A DNA stretch of 46,288 nucleotides from Verrucomicrobiota bacterium (GTDB taxonomy: Bacteria; Verrucomicrobiota; Verrucomicrobiia; Limisphaerales; UBA9464), in the NCBI GenBank assembly GCA_029865985.1, contig JARXAF010000198.1, positions 1 through 46,288 on the forward strand, in the 5' to 3' direction. The translations under genes were made by a program, and so were the position numbers. Shown here piece by piece: positions 27,868 through 40,918 of this stretch (its first letter is position 1; every line of letters begins with the position of its first letter). Under the pieces are notes generated by a model, which was given only the letters and a program-made list of their open reading frames with translations, ran no database searches and was not told the DNA's origin.

Positions 27868-29565
27868 TCAGCGTCCCGCCACCGACAACTCGAGAATTCG
27901 CCCTGAAGGGCCATACGAGTCACTGCTGTTGGTGGACCGGGAATATTCAGCGATGTAGAGCTTTCCTGGGGCTCCCTGATGGATGTCGATGGGGCGACCC
28001 AGCCCCGACAGCACGGTGTGGAAATGCCCCTCGTAGCGGCCTTCCGCATTCCGACGGAGGGTGGCCCGGAGCACATCAAATCCCGAGTTGTCCTTGGGTG
28101 ACCGGATGAAATTCCCGAACCGGGTGAGCAAGAACGTTCCCCGGTACCCTTCGGGAAATTCCTTCCCCAGAAACACAATGCCACCGGGCCCGGAATGCGG
28201 GTCGAAGGTGAACATCGGGGACCCAGAGAATCCTCCATCGGGGCCCAGGTTGGCCACCGGCAGCGTGAAGGTCAGGCCAGCGGGTGGTTCCGGGCTGGTG
28301 GGATACGCCTTCTTCGTCCAGTCGGCGAACCGGTACGGGAATCCGTAATGCTTGCCCTGTTCGATGTGGTTGAGTTCTTCCGGAGCGTCCGCATCCGGAC
28401 CGTTCTCCGTGGCAAACATCTCACCCGCGTCGTTCCAGCAAAAACCATAGGCGTTGCGGGTCCCCCGGGCGTACACCTCCAGGGTGGGCGGTTGCACATC
28501 GGTCTTGATGCGCCAGAGGCACCCGGTGATGGGGGTCTCTCCACCGCCAAACCACTCGGAATCCGGGCTGGTCAACCCGCCATCGGTGCGACCTCCATTG
28601 CCGGCATACAAATGGCCGTCGGGACCAAAGGCGATGTGCTCCACCGCGTGGATATAAGCCGGGCTTCCCGGGTAGTTGGTCTGGAACCACGGCTTGAGCT
28701 CCGAGGGATCTCCGCCGGCGATGGCCGTGCTTCGGTAGATGGTGACGATGTTCTGGTAAGGCCGGGTCGCCTTGTTCTGCTGATTGGAGGCGATGTAGAG
28801 CCGCTTCTGCCGATCGAGAGTCATCCCCAAGACGAAGAGCGGCCCGCCGATATCATCCGGACGGCGTTCCAGATAGCGGTTGGCTGGAAGGATTTGTTTC
28901 AGCGCCGCATTCGAAGGATCCAAGCGCCACACGTCACCCTGCTCGGTCAGCACATACAATTTCTGACCTCGCCCCTCACTGGTGATGCGCACCGGACGGA
29001 ATGGCAACCGAGCCACCTCCCGCAACCGGAACCCCTCCGGAGCCTTGGGCAACGGCGGGTAGCGATTGGCCTGCTGAAGCGCTTCAAAGGTCGGATAAGC
29101 CGTCGTCGCCCGCACCTTCTTGACCTGCTCGGAAGTCACCTCAGGGCCTGCATTGCCCCAGTTGCGCAAAACGTAATTCAAGACGCTCGCCACCTCCTCG
29201 TCTTGCAAGATCGCCGGCGGCATCACACCGGCATACCGACGCGCGTTGACCGTGATCTCGCCATTCAACCCCTCGCAAATGATCCGGATGGCGCGATCGA
29301 TGTCGGCCAGAAGGTAGTCGGAACCCGCCAACGGCGGAAAGACTCCCGGGATCCCTTGCCCCCGCATCTGGTGGCAGGCGAAACAGTTCTTCAGGTAGAG
29401 GTCACGTCCTCGGGAACTCTGGGACTCCGAAGTGGAGGAGGTCCCAGAGTTCGTACCCTGGGCCACCAGAGACGCATTCCCAAGAACCCATCCCAAAACG
29501 GCCCATAGCCCGAGCGCCCGGAACCACCGAGAAGCCCCCGAATTGTTCAAACTGAAGTTCTTCAT
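27868..29565 (-). CDS. Cytochrome c / PQQ-type sugar dehydrogenase fusion
   Basis: A 565-residue exported protein from ATG at 29565, which overlaps the upstream stop as ATGA; the track start at 29577 is a GTG. A signal region is followed by a cytochrome c domain with CFACH at residues 61-65 and GVMPP near 114, typical of distal-Met class I cytochromes. Residues about 180-565 form a beta propeller of the soluble glucose/sorbosone dehydrogenase type (RLYIASNQQN, IAFGPDGHLYAGNGG, GTRNAYGFCWNDAGEMFATENGPDAD). Such enzymes oxidise aldoses with PQQ, and the fused heme can accept electrons. No PQQ synthesis genes are visible here. It is the last gene of the 27868-34843 run. Confidence 0.88.
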   Translation of the reverse strand: MKNFSLNNSGASRWFRALGLWAVLGWVLGNASLVAQGTNSGTSSTSESQSSRGRDLYLKNCFACHQMRGQGIPGVFPPLAGSDYLLADIDRAIRIICEGLNGEITVNARRYAGVMPPAILQDEEVASVLNYVLRNWGNAGPEVTSEQVKKVRATTAYPTFEALQQANRYPPLPKAPEGFRLREVARLPFRPVRITSEGRGQKLYVLTEQGDVWRLDPSNAALKQILPANRYLERRPDDIGGPLFVLGMTLDRQKRLYIASNQQNKATRPYQNIVTIYRSTAIAGGDPSELKPWFQTNYPGSPAYIHAVEHIAFGPDGHLYAGNGGRTDGGLTSPDSEWFGGGETPITGCLWRIKTDVQPPTLEVYARGTRNAYGFCWNDAGEMFATENGPDADAPEELNHIEQGKHYGFPYRFADWTKKAYPTSPEPPAGLTFTLPVANLGPDGGFSGSPMFTFDPHSGPGGIVFLGKEFPEGYRGTFLLTRFGNFIRSPKDNSGFDVLRATLRRNAEGRYEGHFHTVLSGLGRPIDIHQGAPGKLYIAEYSRSTNSSDSYGPSGRILELSVAGR

Positions 29566-31772
29566 TCGATCACCCACCAGTTCATGCCCTGAGCCGGAAC
29601 ACTCACGGTCACCTCCACCCGACTATCACGACCCACCGGCAAGCGCTGAACCTTACCGCCGCGCTCCCGCAACCGTGCCGCGCGGGTCAAACCGGTGTAA
29701 TAGACATTCGGCTTGAGGACCTTTCGGACCGGTTCATTCAAGGGATTGAACACCACCAGCAGACCCTTTTCTTTCAGGAGGGGATTCACATGGAGCATCC
29801 AATCCAAATCCCGGGCATCGGCCCGTCGACCGTGGATCAGATCGCTCTCCAGGATGTCCCGGTGCGCCTTGAACCAATCCACTTGGTCTTTGACCATGGT
29901 TCGGGTGGCCTCGTTGTCAAAGAGGCGCGGCCCGCGATAACAAGCCTGGACACCCAGAGCCAGATTGCTCTCGAGCATGCGCCGATAGTGGTCCAGGTGC
30001 TCCGACAAGGGTTCGATGGTCGCCGCAGCTCCTCCGCCCTGGTATTCGGTCAGTGGCACAAACATCCACCCCATGCTGGGGAGTTTTTCCCAAGTACCGT
30101 CGTAAATGTTCTGTCGGGTGTGGATGACTTGCTGCTCCCGTGGCAGGGACCAGTTGACCTCGCGGTAACCCATGCCGGTCTTGGTGGAACCGGCCGTGAA
30201 ATAATGATCGGGCACGTTCAGGTAGAAGCCCTGCCCCCGGCACCAACGGTAAAAATCACGAATCTCCGCCCATTGATTCCATCGGGAATCCTCCAAACCA
30301 CGGTGCCCCGGATGGTTCGTCGATGCACACGGGTCGCCCGGATACGAACCGTCGTGCTCCAACAACGTGAAGCCACTCTGGCGATGGAACTCGTACAACC
30401 GGCGGAAGTAATTCGTGCCCCACTGGCTTTGCAGGCAGGGTGAATTCCCAAATACCGGCTTGAGGCCCTGGGGCATGACCACGTCATTCCCACCCCCCAC
30501 GCCGCGGGAGGCCAGCAACGAATAGCTCCCGATCTCGACACCCCGACTCCGCGCATAGGCCGAGAAGGCCTGGGCTTTCCGCAAGGTTTCCGGGCGCTCG
30601 TTCTCCATGTCGAAGCCGCTGCCAAAACTGAGGATGAGCATCTCGAAGCCGGTCGCCGCGCACTGGTCGATGGCATTGGTGACCGTGGGCCCGTGCGAGG
30701 AGACCACGTGCATCATCAGTGGATTCTCGGTCACCCAGGGAGCCACCGTGCGCATCATCCGCCGCACGGCCAAGCCACAGCGCTCACGGTCTGTGCTGTC
30801 GTGCGGCAAAATCCAAGCCCGGTAGGTCTCGAAGGTCGCCCCCGGAGCCACAGCCTGGTTGGGCCCCAAATCGGGCCCTACGTCCAGCAAGCACGGAGTC
30901 TTCTTCTCGTAATTCACCTGGGAGTGAAACTCCGGATCGGGCAACCAACGGTAAGAACGCCGATTGGCCCCTGCCGCAGTCATGCCTCCGAAAGACATAT
31001 CCGTCTCGACATGGAAGTTCGGCGGCATCAATCCAACAGACAGCTCATCCACTTCGGAAACCCGTTCCACCGCTGCGAGCACCTCACTCGAGAACCGATT
31101 GAGCGTCACCGCCGATGTGGTTCCGTTGCTCACGGTCATCCATTTCGAATAACAGGGAATGCCGTCATACAACTCGTAGTGCACTGAAATGCGAAGCCCT
31201 CGGAGCGACGGCTCGGAGACCAACGACGCCGGCGCCTCAAAATCGAGCCTCAAGGCAACACCCCGCGGAGGCCACTGCACCCCGGGCGCGTGATGACGCG
31301 CGCGTTTCCACGCCATGCGTTCCTGAGGTACCCCGACCTGATGGCCCACGTAGCGGAATGCTGCAGGCCGCGCTTTGAGTTGTCCTTCCCATTCGGGCCT
31401 CAAGAAGGCGTAGTTGGGCTGCCCCTCCAAGCCGCCGACCTCAAATCGCTTTCCGTTCAACTCCACCACCGCCTCGGGCTTCACCCCACGAATCAAGGAC
31501 TCGCCGCTGACCTGGTTTTCCAAAGACACCGTGGCTGCATTGGGCTCAATGCGGATGACGCGCTTGAGCAAACCGTTTTCGAGGATCACCTCCGGACGAT
31601 CGGATCGCACATGCACCCGGGCCCGATACGGCGACGGATCAATGAGCCAATCCGGGCCAGAGGCACCGGCCGTGGCCGTGATGTGAACCAGCAATCCAAC
31701 GATTGCCCCAAGATAAGAATTCCAACGCATGGGAAAGGTGAGGTTGACCGCCATGAAACCGGGAACATTCAT
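29562..31772 (-). CDS. Predicted glycoside hydrolase, clan GH-D (alpha-galactosidase)-like
   Basis: A 736-residue protein. An N-terminal hydrophobic segment (WNSYLGAIVGLLVHITATAGA) suggests export. Residues about 40-330 are beta-sandwich-like (LENGLLKRVIRIEPNAATVSLEN), as in the N-terminal domain of GH36 and related enzymes. The following region looks like a TIM barrel. The segment FTLLEHDGSYPGDPC near residue 474 has a conserved-looking Asp that could be the nucleophile. A beta-rich C-terminal domain follows (KGLLVVFNPLNEPVRK). Family membership is judged by eye and is not certain; GH31-type or an unclassified family is possible. The gene overlaps both neighbours by ATGA, so it should be translated with the PVC heme protein and the sugar dehydrogenase. 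Confidence 0.7.
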   Translation of the reverse strand: MNVPGFMAVNLTFPMRWNSYLGAIVGLLVHITATAGASGPDWLIDPSPYRARVHVRSDRPEVILENGLLKRVIRIEPNAATVSLENQVSGESLIRGVKPEAVVELNGKRFEVGGLEGQPNYAFLRPEWEGQLKARPAAFRYVGHQVGVPQERMAWKRARHHAPGVQWPPRGVALRLDFEAPASLVSEPSLRGLRISVHYELYDGIPCYSKWMTVSNGTTSAVTLNRFSSEVLAAVERVSEVDELSVGLMPPNFHVETDMSFGGMTAAGANRRSYRWLPDPEFHSQVNYEKKTPCLLDVGPDLGPNQAVAPGATFETYRAWILPHDSTDRERCGLAVRRMMRTVAPWVTENPLMMHVVSSHGPTVTNAIDQCAATGFEMLILSFGSGFDMENERPETLRKAQAFSAYARSRGVEIGSYSLLASRGVGGGNDVVMPQGLKPVFGNSPCLQSQWGTNYFRRLYEFHRQSGFTLLEHDGSYPGDPCASTNHPGHRGLEDSRWNQWAEIRDFYRWCRGQGFYLNVPDHYFTAGSTKTGMGYREVNWSLPREQQVIHTRQNIYDGTWEKLPSMGWMFVPLTEYQGGGAAATIEPLSEHLDHYRRMLESNLALGVQACYRGPRLFDNEATRTMVKDQVDWFKAHRDILESDLIHGRRADARDLDWMLHVNPLLKEKGLLVVFNPLNEPVRKVLKPNVYYTGLTRAARLRERGGKVQRLPVGRDSRVEVTVSVPAQGMNWWVIE

Positions 31773-34700
31773 GGTTTTGCAGGAACCGAAACGGGCGCAG
31801 GCGCATGAGCCACGAACTCCAACAAGTCAGCCACAGCCTGCGGCGACAATCCGGAAAGCAGCCCTTCCGGCATCAGCGACTGGCCTGAACTGCGCATGGA
31901 CCGCACCGCGCGCCGCTCCAAATTCAATTCCTGGCCGCCGCCCAAGCGCAGCGTCACCTGCGTCGGGGTCTCCCGCGCGATGAGTGCCGAGTAGGTCTCC
32001 CCATCCATCGTTTCCACGGTGAAGGCGATGAACTGCGGCGCCACCTCGGCATGGGGTTGCGCCATGCTGGTGAGCAGTTTGGCCTTGCCGGCCGCGCGCA
32101 CCGTCACCAAATCGGGACCCACCGCATGCCCGTCTGAACCGGCCCGATGGCAGGCAGCACAGCGTTCCACAAAGATCCCGCTCCCTCGGCTGGCCGAACC
32201 TTCCAGCGACAAGGCCGGTTGGAGTGCGACGACCACATCGGCACTGGACGGTTCCTTCGGGAGCCACGCCAGCGCCGCTTTAGCCACGGCGGCACTGGCG
32301 TGACCCTGAAGGGCCCGGGCCGTGGCGGCCGGAATCTCGGCCGGAGCCACTTCCCCACGTTCCACCGCGGCCAACAGCGTCAGGGCACGTTCTGGACGAG
32401 AGGACAGCAAGGCCACCACAGCGGTACGATCTTCGGCAGCATAACCCTTCCATGGCTTGAGGAGTCGGCCGGCCACGCCCGGGTCATTGAATCGCCCCAA
32501 GGACTGGATGGCCGCCGCACGAACCCGGGGAGGAGACGCCGCCTCCAACCGTCGGCTCAATGGCTCAGCCACATCGGCATAGCGCCCCACCGCGAGCAAT
32601 TCCACCGCACGAACCCGCTCCATCTCTGGCCCACCCTCATCGTCGGCACGGACCCTGGCTGATCGGAACAACCGTTGCAGACGCTCGTCCGACTCCCAAG
32701 CCACGCCGGATTTGCCGGAACGGACCGACGCTTCCAGAAATGCTCGCACCATTCGCGGCGCCTGATCCGACCATTCGGTGCGGGCCATCTGATCCAAGAA
32801 GAGCTCCCCATCCGGTCGAATACCCTGAGAACCCATCACCCTCGCCAATGCCTCCAGGAAATCGCCACTCCGAGGTCGTTGGGCAAACCCCGGAATCCGG
32901 GTCAACGCTTGGAACACCTCGCCCGCCCCACTGTTCAGGCCACTCAAGACCGCCGCCTGAACGAGCGATTGATCCCCGTCGCGCAAGAGAATGCGAACGA
33001 GCGCCTGGTTGCGCTCCGAACCCGACGCGGCTCCCAAGGTGAATGCCAGTTCCCAACGGACTCGCGGCGACGGATCCGCATCCAGCGACATGAGGGTTTG
33101 CAGCAAGCTCTGGGCGGCCAAATCCGAACGCCCCACCCGAGGCTCCGCCAATCTCACGGCATGCCGTCGCACCCGTTCATCCGAATCGGCGAGAGCGGGT
33201 TGCAAATGACGCACCCCATCCAAGGCCTTCAACCCATCGAGCGAATACAAGGCATGCATTCGAGCCAGCGGCGCGGTGGATTTCTGGAGCAAGCGCTCCA
33301 ACTCCGGCACAGCAGAAGAATCCTGACGTTCATGGATGAGGCGAGAAACCGTCTCGCGCACCCATCCATTCGGGCTTTCGAGAGCGGCCACGCAGTCACG
33401 GACCGAGGCCTGACTCCAACGCCGCGAGGCCGGCCTACGGAACCCCTCCGGAACCACCCGCCAAATGCGGCCACGATCGTTGCCGCTGTTGAGATCCAAG
33501 TGCTGCTTGATGGCCTCCGGGATGGACCACGGGTGCTCGATGACCTCCCGGTACATGTCCACGATGTAAAGACAACCGTCTGGACCGTTCTGGAAGTGCA
33601 CCGGGCGAAACCACGTGTCCCGAGACGCCAGAAACTCAACCCCCTGCTCATCCACTGGCCGGCGCGCCACCCAGCCCACGCCATCGGGATGCAACTTCTT
33701 CCGGTGAACCAAATTCCCTCCGGCATCGCCGATGAAAACAGAGTCGACGAAGTCCGGGCCATAGGCGTCGCCACGGTACACGGTTGCCCCGGTGGCCCCC
33801 GTGAAATAACCGGAAACCCGCCCACCCCCCTCGACCATGCCTGGAACGACGCCACTGATGCGCCACCGGGTCCGAACAATCCGCCAGGGCTCGTCGGGGC
33901 TGATCCGAAAAACTTCGGCAGCAGGCCCATCGGCCGCGATGCTCACCCGCGGAGAAGTCAGGGCGACCCAGGGATTGCGCGAGGCATGCGGCCAGTCCAA
34001 GGCCATCCACTGGAGGTGATCGCTATTGCTGCACACGAATCGATTGCCCACCGAATCGAAGGACAGGCCGTACTGCCCGCCGCCGGTCTCCGGACGGATC
34101 GTCTCGGTCAATGGATCGAAGCTGAAATCCAACCCACGTAAATCGAGTGCCGATGCCTCGGAACCCGGACGGAAAACCCGATTCCCCCCATTGGGTCCCG
34201 TGGCTCCGTAGAGACGGTGATCCAACCCCCAATTGAAGGAATTCAAGAGAGCCTGAACATTGAGCCGAGCCACCCCTTGGCCGAATCCGGTGACCACCAC
34301 ACGTCGCTCATCGGCCTTGCCGTCGCCGGTGGTGTCGTTGAGCCACAAGATATCAGGCGATGCTCCGACATACAGGCCACCCCGGGAACAAATCAAGGCC
34401 GTCGGCCATGGCAGGTTGTCGGCGAACACCGTGGAACGATCGAAGCGACCATCGCCGTCGAGATCCTCCAGCATCCGGATCCGTCCGGCGTGCGGGTTTT
34501 CGTCCCGGCGCTCGGAGTAATCGATCATTTCCGCCACGAAGGCGCGGCCGTCTTCGTCGAAGGCCAGGGTCACCGGACTCACCACCTGAGGCTCGCTGGC
34601 AACCAGTTCCATGCGAAAACCCTTCCGAATTTGGAAGGTCTCAGAGGCCCGATCAGGCGGTACCGGTGGAAACCGCACCAGTTCCCCAGCCATGACGGAA

Positions 34701-34843
34701 GTCGCCTGGCCGGATTTTCCGTAGGCTTCCGAATAACTGACCCGGGTCTGCGGCGAGGGCACCGACTCGGCCCCGAGGCAAGCCCATGCCGTCGCGATGG
34801 CGACCGATGTCCTGCTCACGGCGTGCCAGCCTGAAGAGTTCAC
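31769..34843 (-). CDS. PVC-type heme-binding CxxCH protein with beta propeller and HEAT repeats
   Basis: A 1024-residue exported protein from GTG at 34843. Its N-terminal part is a beta propeller of the Pirellula/Verrucomicrobium 'membrane-bound dehydrogenase' type (RMELVASEPQVVSPVTLAFDEDGRAFVAEM, IRMLEDLDGDGRFD). About residues 470-860 are helical HEAT-like repeats (VRDCVAALESPNGWVRETVSRL and similar). The C-terminal heme domain has CAACHRAGSDGHAVGPDL near residue 895 and a later DGETYSALIARETPTQVTLR. Members are common in PVC bacteria, and their electron donors are unknown. It starts a run of three four-base-overlapping genes, and a DsbD-like gene lies 67 bases upstream on the same strand. 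Confidence 0.93.
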   Translation of the reverse strand: MNSSGWHAVSRTSVAIATAWACLGAESVPSPQTRVSYSEAYGKSGQATSVMAGELVRFPPVPPDRASETFQIRKGFRMELVASEPQVVSPVTLAFDEDGRAFVAEMIDYSERRDENPHAGRIRMLEDLDGDGRFDRSTVFADNLPWPTALICSRGGLYVGASPDILWLNDTTGDGKADERRVVVTGFGQGVARLNVQALLNSFNWGLDHRLYGATGPNGGNRVFRPGSEASALDLRGLDFSFDPLTETIRPETGGGQYGLSFDSVGNRFVCSNSDHLQWMALDWPHASRNPWVALTSPRVSIAADGPAAEVFRISPDEPWRIVRTRWRISGVVPGMVEGGGRVSGYFTGATGATVYRGDAYGPDFVDSVFIGDAGGNLVHRKKLHPDGVGWVARRPVDEQGVEFLASRDTWFRPVHFQNGPDGCLYIVDMYREVIEHPWSIPEAIKQHLDLNSGNDRGRIWRVVPEGFRRPASRRWSQASVRDCVAALESPNGWVRETVSRLIHERQDSSAVPELERLLQKSTAPLARMHALYSLDGLKALDGVRHLQPALADSDERVRRHAVRLAEPRVGRSDLAAQSLLQTLMSLDADPSPRVRWELAFTLGAASGSERNQALVRILLRDGDQSLVQAAVLSGLNSGAGEVFQALTRIPGFAQRPRSGDFLEALARVMGSQGIRPDGELFLDQMARTEWSDQAPRMVRAFLEASVRSGKSGVAWESDERLQRLFRSARVRADDEGGPEMERVRAVELLAVGRYADVAEPLSRRLEAASPPRVRAAAIQSLGRFNDPGVAGRLLKPWKGYAAEDRTAVVALLSSRPERALTLLAAVERGEVAPAEIPAATARALQGHASAAVAKAALAWLPKEPSSADVVVALQPALSLEGSASRGSGIFVERCAACHRAGSDGHAVGPDLVTVRAAGKAKLLTSMAQPHAEVAPQFIAFTVETMDGETYSALIARETPTQVTLRLGGGQELNLERRAVRSMRSSGQSLMPEGLLSGLSPQAVADLLEFVAHAPAPVSVPAKP

Positions 34844-37241: not shown

Positions 37242-37949
37242 TTAGCGGCGGTTGCGGCGGAGTGCAGCAGCACCCACGAACGCCGCACCGACAACACCGA
37301 GGGCCACCGTGGTGGGCTCCGGAACAGTCGCGGTGATGGCCAACTTGAAATTGGCATCCCCACCAGTGTTCAAAGCGCGCAGAGCCCAATCGTTGTTACC
37401 GGAACCGGTCTTCTGCCAGAAATCACCACCGGATTGACCCACATTCAAGTGCGGGCGACCCACAGCGGATTCAGCACCACCGATAACCCAGCCCTTGTCA
37501 GCGCCCGTGGAGGCACCCGAGAAGCTCACGGTCACCGTGAAATCCTTGGGCAAAACAAAGTTACCGTACTGGGCAACGTAAGGAGCATAATCGAACGTGG
37601 CCGTGTTGTAGCCCTGGGAGATACCAATGCCCGGAACGTTCAAGAGGGCAGTGCCGGGAGCCTTGAAACCGTTGATCAACGCACCGTCGTTGGCGTAGAT
37701 GTTCAGGTTCATGGTGCCGCCGAGCGAAGCGGAGTAGTAGTCGAACGACAGGGTGGAGAGCCGATAACCTGCAGCCGGCAAGGTGATCTGGTCGCCGAAC
37801 TCAAGGCCTTGGTGGCCGTTGGCCGGGGAGGTGCCCACACCGTAGATATCGGTGCCGGTCCCTGTGGTGGAATAAATGGTACCAGCGAACACCGACGCCG
37901 TTGAAAGGGCCAGCGCAGCTGCTGCAGCAAGAATAGAAGTCTGAGTCAT
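37242..37949 (-). CDS. PEP-CTERM sorted exported protein
   Basis: A 235-residue protein with an N-terminal signal (MTQTSILAAAAALALSTASVFAG) and a C-terminal tripartite sorting tail: VPEPTTVALG, a hydrophobic stretch (VVGAAFVGAAAL) and a basic end (RRNRR). PEP-CTERM tails are recognised by exosortases (EpsH/XrtA family), which cleave and anchor the protein in the envelope. The middle is beta-rich, with YRLSTLSFDYYSASLGGTMNLNIYAND and a Gly/Asn-rich segment, and no enzyme motif is visible. No exosortase is encoded in the window. A strong terminator follows, so it is probably monocistronic. The 141 bases upstream show a possible -35 (TTGACC) but no good -10. Confidence 0.92.
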   Translation of the reverse strand: MTQTSILAAAAALALSTASVFAGTIYSTTGTGTDIYGVGTSPANGHQGLEFGDQITLPAAGYRLSTLSFDYYSASLGGTMNLNIYANDGALINGFKAPGTALLNVPGIGISQGYNTATFDYAPYVAQYGNFVLPKDFTVTVSFSGASTGADKGWVIGGAESAVGRPHLNVGQSGGDFWQKTGSGNNDWALRALNTGGDANFKLAITATVPEPTTVALGVVGAAFVGAAALRRNRR

Positions 37950-38090: not shown

Positions 38091-40799
38091 TCAAGGGTTC
38101 AGGCGGCTCTGGATTTCACGGGCCTCCGATTGGGCTTCTTCCCATGGCTTTCCGGCCGACATTCCTGGTCGTTGATGCCCCGCATACGTCAACGCAGCAT
38201 CTTTGAGCACCCGCTGACGGCGTCGGATCAGAGCCCATGGATCGGCCGGATTTTGTGACAACCGAAGCAATTCGTCTGGGGTTGCAAACTCCATCCAAGC
38301 CACCTGCGCGCCCATCGCCCGCAAGGCTTCACGAGCCATCAGCCAGTGGCCCTGTCGATTGGCATGCACTCCATCCCCCGACAGCGTGAACGCGGGATTC
38401 TGAGAGCGCTGAGCGTTGAGGAATTCTCTCATGGGACCGTGCACATCCACCACCTGCCACCCGTTGAGTCGCTGCGCGACCAACCACTGCGAATAGGCAC
38501 TCAACACCTCATCGTAGCCTTCGAAGGGTTGCGGATAGGCCTTGAGACCCGCGGGCAAGGTGCGCCCTTTTAATGGCTGGGAATCAAACACGGGCGGCGT
38601 CAGGTGGATCACGCGAACCCCTTCATGGGCTGCCGCCTCGTGCAACCGGCGCATGCCGTCGCGGAATTTGGCGAAGCGCGACTCTTCCAAGGGAAAGTAA
38701 ATCCCGTCGTTCATTCCGTAGCAGGCCAAGATCAAGTCGGGCTTGAGGCGGCTCAAAACCCGCGCCAGACGCTCATGGACATCTGGTCGCGGAAATGCGC
38801 CACCCGCATGTCCTTCTTCCGACAAGCCAGAGGCGGTCTCGCTGGGCAAACCGAGATTGAGAATCTCCGGATGACTGCCGGGATCAATTCGCCGAATGCC
38901 CGCCTCCAGAAACTCCACCCACTCACCGGAATAGGTAATACTGTCACCGAGCACCACAATGCGGGGTGCGGATCGAATCATTCGGGCGGCCTCGGTGGGC
39001 AATGCCTCGCCAACGGCGGGTACCAACCGGATCTGACGCAAGTCCATCACCGCGCCACCGATTTTGCGGACGGGTCGAACCGCCAAGGTGTGTCGACCCG
39101 CTCCCAAAGAGACGCGACCCAGACGCCGAACGACAAAATTCTGGAAATGCCCCGTCTCTTCCACAGTCCAGGGAATAACCTGATCCGCGATGCGCAACTC
39201 GATCTGGCTACCCGCCGATCCTCGCCCGCAACCTTGCGTCAACTCCACTTCGAAGACTCCCGCCTGGGTGAGGTCCAAGGTCCAATCGGCCCAGTCCTCG
39301 GCGCGAGCCCACCAACCGAGCGTGTCCTTGAAGGGCATTGGCTCATACCTCAGCACGGTTCCATGCACGGAGGCGGAACGCGAATGCAGCAGCAGAGTCC
39401 CATCGGTTGAAACCGACAGGGGTTGGGCCTGATAGTCCGGATTGGACATCGGCCATTGAGCCCCGACCCGGCCTTGCCAGTCGGCCAGACGACGAGACAA
39501 ATCCATGACTCGTTGTGGTTGCTCAGCGGCCACATTGCGGGTTTCACCCGGGTCCTGAGCGAGGTCGAACAATTCATGGCGACCGTCCTCGTAATACTGG
39601 ATGAGTTTCCAATCCCCAGCCCGAATCGCCGAATAGGGCGTGGCACCGCCGGGATGATAATGCGGGTAGTGCCAGCCGATGACATCACGCCGAAGCCGGG
39701 CGGAGGCATCCTTCAAGAGCGGCCCCAAATTCGATCCATCTTCGAGGGTTTCAGCGGACGATCCCGACATCGCCGCAGCCACCGTGGCGGCTATGTCCAT
39801 GGAGATCACGGGTTGATCCACCCGCCCCTGGGGCACGGCCACTCCCGGCCAACGGACCAGCAGCGGCACTCGAATACCCCCCTCATAGGGCGAACCCTTG
39901 CCCGATCGCAACGGTGTGTTGGAAGTCGGAGGATTCTGACCCAGGACCAGCCCGCCGTTGTCCGAGGTGAAGACCACGACCGTGTGATCGGTGAGGCCGC
40001 TGGAATCGAGAGCAGACAAAACCTGCCCCACCGCCGCGTCCAAGCTCTCCAGCATCGCCGCATAGACGGCGTTGGTTTGGGAACCCCCTACCGTCCGGGC
40101 TTTCTTGCGATACTTTTCCACGAGCCCCGGCTTGGCCTGAAGCGGCGTGTGGACCGAGTGGAAGGCCACCTGAAGAAAGAACGGCTGGTCTCGATGCCCG
40201 CGGATGAAGGCGGCCGCTTCAGTCCCCTCGCGATCGGTCAGATACTCCCCCCGAGGTCCGTCGGGAAGCTGCGGCAATCCGTAAGGCGAAAAATAGGAAG
40301 GTGGCTGGCCGCGATGGTCTCCACCGAGGTTGAGGTCGAAGCCTTGCTGGAGCGGCCCGAACCCTTCCCCGCCGAGGTGCCATTTTCCGATATGCGCTGT
40401 GGTACGACCTGAGGCCTTGGCCCGTTCGGCGAGTGTTTGCTCGGACAGCGGCAACGCCTTTACCCAGTCGGCCGGCGGACGCAGCTTGGCTTTGGGAGCA
40501 TCGTGCCCGGCAATCCAATCGGTGATCTTGAGTCGGGCCGGGTACTTGCCCGTCATGAGCGCTGCGCGAGTGGGAGAGCACACCGTGCACGCGGAGTAGG
40601 CCTGAGTGAACTGAACCCCTTCCCGGGCCAATCGATCCAAGTTGGGAGTCTCGTGGAAGCGGCTGCCACTCGAAGCCAAATCATGGGCCCCCAGGTCGTC
40701 AGCGACCATCAGAACCACATTGAGCCGCGCGGCATCAGCCGCATGCAACCCACCGACGGCCATCAACAGCCCCAATAGCAGACCGAATCGAGGAATCAT
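38091..40799 (-). CDS. Sulfatase / beta-sandwich / SGNH-hydrolase fusion
   Basis: A 902-residue exported protein from ATG at 40799 (MIPRFGLLLGLLMAVGG, signal peptide); the track uses a GTG at 40871. Residues about 25-440 form a type I sulfatase. CSPTRAALMTG carries the formylglycine Cys at about residue 74, NVVLMVADDLGAHD supplies metal-binding Asp residues, and FTSDNGG and the C-terminal subdomain DGRHELFDLAQDPGE follow. Residues about 500-605 resemble a CBM-like beta sandwich (WADWTLDLTQAGVFEVELTQ). Residues about 612-830 are an SGNH/GDSL hydrolase with VVLGDSITYSG (block I), GMNDGIY (block III) and DGVHANRQGH (catalytic Asp/His). It could remove sulfate and ester groups from one polysaccharide. 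The substrate is unknown. Confidence 0.93.
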   Translation of the reverse strand: MIPRFGLLLGLLMAVGGLHAADAARLNVVLMVADDLGAHDLASSGSRFHETPNLDRLAREGVQFTQAYSACTVCSPTRAALMTGKYPARLKITDWIAGHDAPKAKLRPPADWVKALPLSEQTLAERAKASGRTTAHIGKWHLGGEGFGPLQQGFDLNLGGDHRGQPPSYFSPYGLPQLPDGPRGEYLTDREGTEAAAFIRGHRDQPFFLQVAFHSVHTPLQAKPGLVEKYRKKARTVGGSQTNAVYAAMLESLDAAVGQVLSALDSSGLTDHTVVVFTSDNGGLVLGQNPPTSNTPLRSGKGSPYEGGIRVPLLVRWPGVAVPQGRVDQPVISMDIAATVAAAMSGSSAETLEDGSNLGPLLKDASARLRRDVIGWHYPHYHPGGATPYSAIRAGDWKLIQYYEDGRHELFDLAQDPGETRNVAAEQPQRVMDLSRRLADWQGRVGAQWPMSNPDYQAQPLSVSTDGTLLLHSRSASVHGTVLRYEPMPFKDTLGWWARAEDWADWTLDLTQAGVFEVELTQGCGRGSAGSQIELRIADQVIPWTVEETGHFQNFVVRRLGRVSLGAGRHTLAVRPVRKIGGAVMDLRQIRLVPAVGEALPTEAARMIRSAPRIVVLGDSITYSGEWVEFLEAGIRRIDPGSHPEILNLGLPSETASGLSEEGHAGGAFPRPDVHERLARVLSRLKPDLILACYGMNDGIYFPLEESRFAKFRDGMRRLHEAAAHEGVRVIHLTPPVFDSQPLKGRTLPAGLKAYPQPFEGYDEVLSAYSQWLVAQRLNGWQVVDVHGPMREFLNAQRSQNPAFTLSGDGVHANRQGHWLMAREALRAMGAQVAWMEFATPDELLRLSQNPADPWALIRRRQRVLKDAALTYAGHQRPGMSAGKPWEEAQSEAREIQSRLNP

Positions 40800-40918
40800 C
40801 CACGGAGACTGACCCGACCGGGCTCGATGGGAAAGCGCGGAGAGAATCTGGGAAGGACCGCTTTGAAACACTTCAGGTCAAAGCAACCTTCGTAGTTCGG
40901 AGCACACGATGCAAACCA

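Follow-up and report, generated by a model that had tools for sequence, protein, structure and literature searches.

A putative sulfatase–SGNH esterase joined through a CBM6/CBM35-like domain in one family of Verrucomicrobiota

Why should a sulfatase and an SGNH-type esterase share a single polypeptide, do the two serve the same glycan, and how did they come together? These questions are raised by a gene of a Verrucomicrobiota bacterium located in the window analysed here, i.e., the whole stretch of 46,288 nucleotides of contig JARXAF010000198.1. The gene occupies a single open frame on the minus strand (38091-40871), in which the ATG at 40799 corresponds to residue 25. This codon opens a signal peptide and coincides exactly with the end coordinate given to the feature in a preliminary description. 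The following features were delimited (residues are numbered from the beginning of the open frame):

38091..40799, minus strand: whole coding sequence, 902 aa, comprising a signal peptide, an S1 sulfatase, a CBM6/35-like domain, an SGNH hydrolase and a conserved C-terminal tail
40734..40799, minus strand: signal peptide, residues 25-46, MIPRFGLLLGLLMAVGGLHAAD, read from the sequence, with an N-terminal helix in the model and similar starts in orthologues
39432..40733, minus strand: type I sulfatase domain, residues 47-480, closest to S1_16 enzymes (PF00884, SGSH_C, phmmer and Foldseek to 9fo1)
40566..40580, minus strand: formylglycine site CSPTR, residues 98-102
39006..39422, minus strand: B, a CBM6/CBM35-like beta-sandwich and shared hinge domain, residues 484-622
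38292..38975, minus strand: SGNH/GDSL hydrolase domain, residues 633-860 (PF13472; blocks invariant in 28 relatives; Foldseek to Axe2, BT4096 and PbeAcXE)
38934..38948, minus strand: SGNH block I, GDSIT, starting at residue 642, with the catalytic Ser644
38706..38717, minus strand: SGNH block III, GMND, from residue 719, with Asn721
38364..38375, minus strand: SGNH block V, DGVH, from residue 833, with Asp833 and His836
38094..38291, minus strand: C-terminal helical tail, to residue 926, with an invariant H-x-RPG-x(3)-G-x-P motif

Pfam matches well past the cut-off were obtained for both enzymes: Sulfatase (PF00884) at residues 51-368 (E 2e-54), together with SGSH_C (PF16347, 2e-17), and Lipase_GDSL_2 (PF13472) at residues 640-843 (1.5e-12). 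The preliminary description had read a sulfatase and an SGNH esterase in one frame, a CBM-like sandwich between them and two complete active sites. The first point is confirmed by the open frame and the Pfam search, the second agrees with matches of the central domain to CBM6/CBM35, by family profile and in a model of B with the SGNH domain, and the third holds in that the catalytic blocks of both enzymes are present and conserved. The C-terminal tail accompanies the SGNH domain and, outside its invariant motif, is the fastest-changing part of the protein.

From these data and those given below, we infer an exported bifunctional enzyme whose sulfatase and esterase act on the same glycan and which was born by recombination within B, a reading that we regard as fairly probable as a whole. 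According to it, a formylglycine-dependent S1_16-like sulfatase would remove a sulfate ester, probably 4-O-linked to a terminal galactose- or GalNAc-like sugar, while a Ser-Asp-His SGNH esterase would strip that glycan, or oligosaccharides derived from it, of an acyl group that is most likely O-acetyl. As to the origin, a sulfatase already ending in B (SB) would have been joined to a B-B-SGNH esterase (BBG), replacing the first B of the latter, probably in one Verrucomicrobiota family.

The sulfatase domain finds its top matches, by sequence and by fold, in 9fo1 and 6ust. AMOR_S1_16A (PDB 9fo1), an exo-acting kappa-carrageenan 4-O-sulfatase of S1_16, was retrieved by phmmer with E 1e-131 and ranked first in Foldseek (E 1.6e-45, TMt 0.86, approximately 48% identity over 439 columns); BT3057 and BT3796, which act on 4S-Gal/GalNAc, are further close S1_16 sulfatases. 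CSPTR 98-102 conforms to the C-x-P-x-R formylglycine motif of S1 (type I) sulfatases, and the fold retains the Ca2+ ligands and the sulfate-binding Lys/His of this class. Aligned with 9fo1, the domain keeps the Ca2+ ligands D58, D59, D304 and N305, as well as C98/R102, K325, H165, H241 and W119 (residue roles follow PMC11760155). It thus shares with AMOR_S1_16A the formylglycine site, the Ca2+ ligands and the Trp of the 0 subsite, but the solved S1_16 chains consist of the sulfatase alone, and the fusion lacks His149, Asn369 and Gln370: in AMOR numbering, His149 is replaced by Gln189 and Asn369-Gln370 by Pro407-Gly408. A comparison of four solved S1_16 structures is reported to show strict conservation of Trp79, His125 and His149; the first two are kept here as W119 and H165, with Gln189 in the place of the third. 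As just 37% of S1_16 sequences contain the 0-subsite Trp (PMC10154612), the Trp/His/His set does not define the subfamily. Since not all 0-subsite features of the solved enzymes are kept, the substrate sugar of the fused sulfatase may differ from kappa-carrageenan. In AMOR_S1_16A, Trp79 blocks the non-reducing side and makes the enzyme exo-acting on oligomers (PMC11760155), and the pocket Trp is required for 4-O-Gal/GalNAc activity in the published enzymes (PMC11760155, PMC10154612). Because W119 is equivalent to this pocket-blocking residue, exo 4-O desulfation is the best guess for the fused sulfatase, and oligosaccharide ends seem a likelier substrate than polymer. Elsewhere in this genome, a gene cut by a contig end specifies an FGE-type protein with a GGSFLC motif, which would presumably be the sulfatase maturase.

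On its own, B (residues 484-622) has no Pfam match. Its family profile, in turn, matches the CBM6 of a beta-agarase (2cdo, E 2e-6), and other members of the family match CBM_6 (1e-5) and DUF5077 (1e-8). A separate model of B with the SGNH domain (pLDDT 83, pTM 0.77) matches CBM6/CBM35 folds (Foldseek TMt 0.64-0.74), and B possesses the beta-sandwich that marks this fold. Located between the two enzymes, B joins them and may also hold the sugar.

The same modules recur in many other arrangements. Profiles of S (sulfatase), B, G (SGNH), H (alpha/beta-hydrolase) and P (GH43-like propeller) were run over all fetched loci; these were fetched by their match to the query, so that counts are not frequencies and the variety of orders is the point. 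With S, we found the orders S, SB, SBG, SBGH and SH; those devoid of S are BG, BGH, BBG, BBGH, BBGP, BBGHP, G, GH, HG, GHP and H. The closest PDB matches of H are esterases at E 3e-7 or weaker; for P no PDB relative was found, and it shows weak similarity only, to GH43/GH32. In L164 and L197 a BBG gene has an unfused sulfatase gene in its vicinity, and in L119 and L160 it is an H gene that lies close to BBG. Several of the individual architectures deserve separate mention. In L106:1285-3624 and L107:697-2988, this sulfatase is followed directly, in one chain, by an uncharacterised alpha/beta-hydrolase (SH), and in L102:664-4245 the hydrolase comes after the sulfatase-B-SGNH chain (SBGH). Large proteins that combine the SGNH domain, the alpha/beta-hydrolase and a C-terminal GH43-like propeller are encoded at L016:214-3969, L124:1465-5409 and L125:1760-5728, those of L016 and L124 with B domains in front; the propeller of these proteins possibly represents an unrecognised glycosidase family. 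The protein encoded at L080:5234-7426 combines an SGNH domain of this family with a PF12876 cellulase-like domain; the genes next to it are those of a BNR-repeat protein and a GH141-type beta-helix protein.

How the fusion arose can be approached from the trees of its parts. That of the sulfatase groups SBG, SBGH, SH and one SB in a single clade with a support of 100. In that of the SGNH domain, the fused proteins fall within the BBG esterases of their family: 19 fused and five BBG rows are united by one branch (100/96), and as the BBG rows part two fused lineages, at least two label changes are needed. Within the fused B itself, the closest counterparts of residues 492-526 belong to SB sulfatases and those of residues 527-620 to BBG esterases, and each of these results holds for 22 of 22 sequences. 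The N-terminal signal leans on one SB sequence, L103, the removal of which changes the count for that half to 11 SB and 11 ties. A column permutation test for a breakpoint in B yielded a modest p of 0.02. Since the N-terminal end of B is nearest to SB and its C-terminal end to BBG, the pattern is suggestive of a joining by recombination inside the shared B domain.

Do the two enzymes also share a target? The proposal had been that, in a single pass, the protein strips one polymer of two decorations. The common target is supported by the module shuffling and by the adjacent unfused genes, while a single pass along a polymer lacks such support and is less likely because of the exo-type pocket of the sulfatase formed with W119. 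The fusion might also be a mere tether that co-exports and co-regulates enzymes acting on different substrates or at different times. This would agree with the finding that every module also occurs alone or with other partners, as well as with the genetic context, as the fusion gene stands alone, flanked by fabF and a PEP-CTERM-like gene, and no polysaccharide locus was found among its neighbours. These include fabF and genes for a short-chain reductase, argininosuccinate synthase, the PEP-CTERM-like protein, DsbD and cytochrome-type dehydrogenases. Yet the recurrent combination of a small number of modules in varied orders, like the adjacent unfused S and BBG genes, is more expected with a shared substrate, and we consider simple tethering unlikely. 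The neighbourhood is conserved in three relatives (L001, L002 and L005) and not in L003 or L004; such a conserved chromosomal position argues against horizontal spread on phages or plasmids. Two further features of the region were noted. Directly downstream of the fusion gene, at 37242-37949 of the window (minus strand), lies the gene for the PEP-CTERM-like secreted protein (VPEPTTVALG...RRNRR), syntenic in L001, L002 and L005. Proteins with DUF7133/HEAT/cytochrome c and GSDH/cytochrome c domains are encoded near the fusion gene at 27868-34843 (minus strand), partly syntenic in relatives.

The SGNH domain carries blocks I (GDS), II (G), III (GxND) and V (DxxH), and its nearest solved folds are the deacetylases PbeAcXE (7tog), Est2A (3u37), Axe2 (4oap) and BT4096 (7br2). 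These have the SGNH fold as in the fusion, and some of them also pair it with a beta-sandwich domain. They differ in that no sulfatase is attached and identity to the fusion amounts to 9-21%; over both domains together, 7tog and 3u37 superpose poorly (rmsd about 18 A). The acyl group removed would most likely be O-acetyl, the leaving group being suggested by these remote structural neighbours only. Their remoteness would also suit a binding or structural SGNH domain, in which case the protein would function as just a sulfatase. This seems improbable, given that all 28 aligned relatives retain Ser644, Gly674, Asn721, Asp833 and His836 and that purifying selection on the domain is comparable to that on the sulfatase.

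That selection was measured among orthologues. The fusion occurs in each of the 18 genomes searched within the genus and, from two other genera of the family, in G021, G025 and G031; it is absent from 23 genomes of other families in the order, and samples of 293 genomes from the order and 388 from the phylum showed it nowhere outside its family. A collection of 85,000 species gave at least five full-length matches among the matches listed, all of them Verrucomicrobiota. The survey of the architecture called for in the preliminary description thus places it, within the order and phylum samples, in one Verrucomicrobiota family. Where dS was measurable, dN/dS ranged from 0.055 to 0.14 for the sulfatase and from 0.07 to 0.16 for the SGNH domain, and, apart from one sequence without CSPTR, the 19 aligned orthologues show no variation at the catalytic residues tested in either enzyme. 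Both catalytic modules are under purifying selection, and decay or assembly error behind the fusion is therefore unlikely. The low dN/dS rejects a decaying fusion, as had been argued earlier from the intact active sites; an assembly or frameshift artefact is ruled out by the identical frame in 22 genomes, none of which has a stop or frameshift between the domains. The sequence that lacks CSPTR comes from one species, represented identically by L094:1189-3879 and L002:7800-10490, in which an in-frame gap of 144 bp removes 48 residues including this site and leaves the rest intact; it may reflect either loss of sulfatase function or assembly collapse. Although this gap could hint at a sulfatase that is dispensable or degenerating in a protein acting mainly as an esterase, we find this highly improbable, as the 18 other aligned sequences keep all tested sulfatase catalytic residues with a low dN/dS and the lone gap may be an assembly collapse.

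Single chains that pair a sulfatase with a second carbohydrate-active domain have been described: S1_7 with GH10/GH32 and S1_15 with GH29 in Kiritimatiellales and Planctomycetes (PMC6388578), to which the GH78/sulfatase 6hr5 can be added. In these proteins the partner is a glycoside hydrolase, whereas here it is an SGNH esterase attached through a CBM-like hinge. Multimodular carbohydrate esterases described from a marine flavobacterium (PMC12247016) resemble the fusion in esterase activity and in carrying several carbohydrate-active modules per chain; in contrast, they are xylan-directed, and the abstract mentions no sulfatase. A published fusion of a sulfatase with an SGNH, GDSL or carbohydrate esterase domain was not found in the open literature, most subscription journals lying outside it.

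A sulfatase and an esterase in one chain would provide a direct, testable pair of activities on a glycan. More tentatively, and with doubts on our part, B could be regarded as a recombination hinge that assembles the S1_16-like sulfatase, the SGNH esterase, the alpha/beta-hydrolase and the GH43-like propeller into interchangeable single-chain enzymes of Verrucomicrobiota, all directed at one sulfated and acylated glycan, so that the fusions would reveal steps of its pathway. The shuffled set names four catalytic-type modules that probably act together, H and P among them being devoid of a close characterised relative. Should this be borne out, genomes alone would give a lead on how a polysaccharide encountered by these bacteria is decorated.
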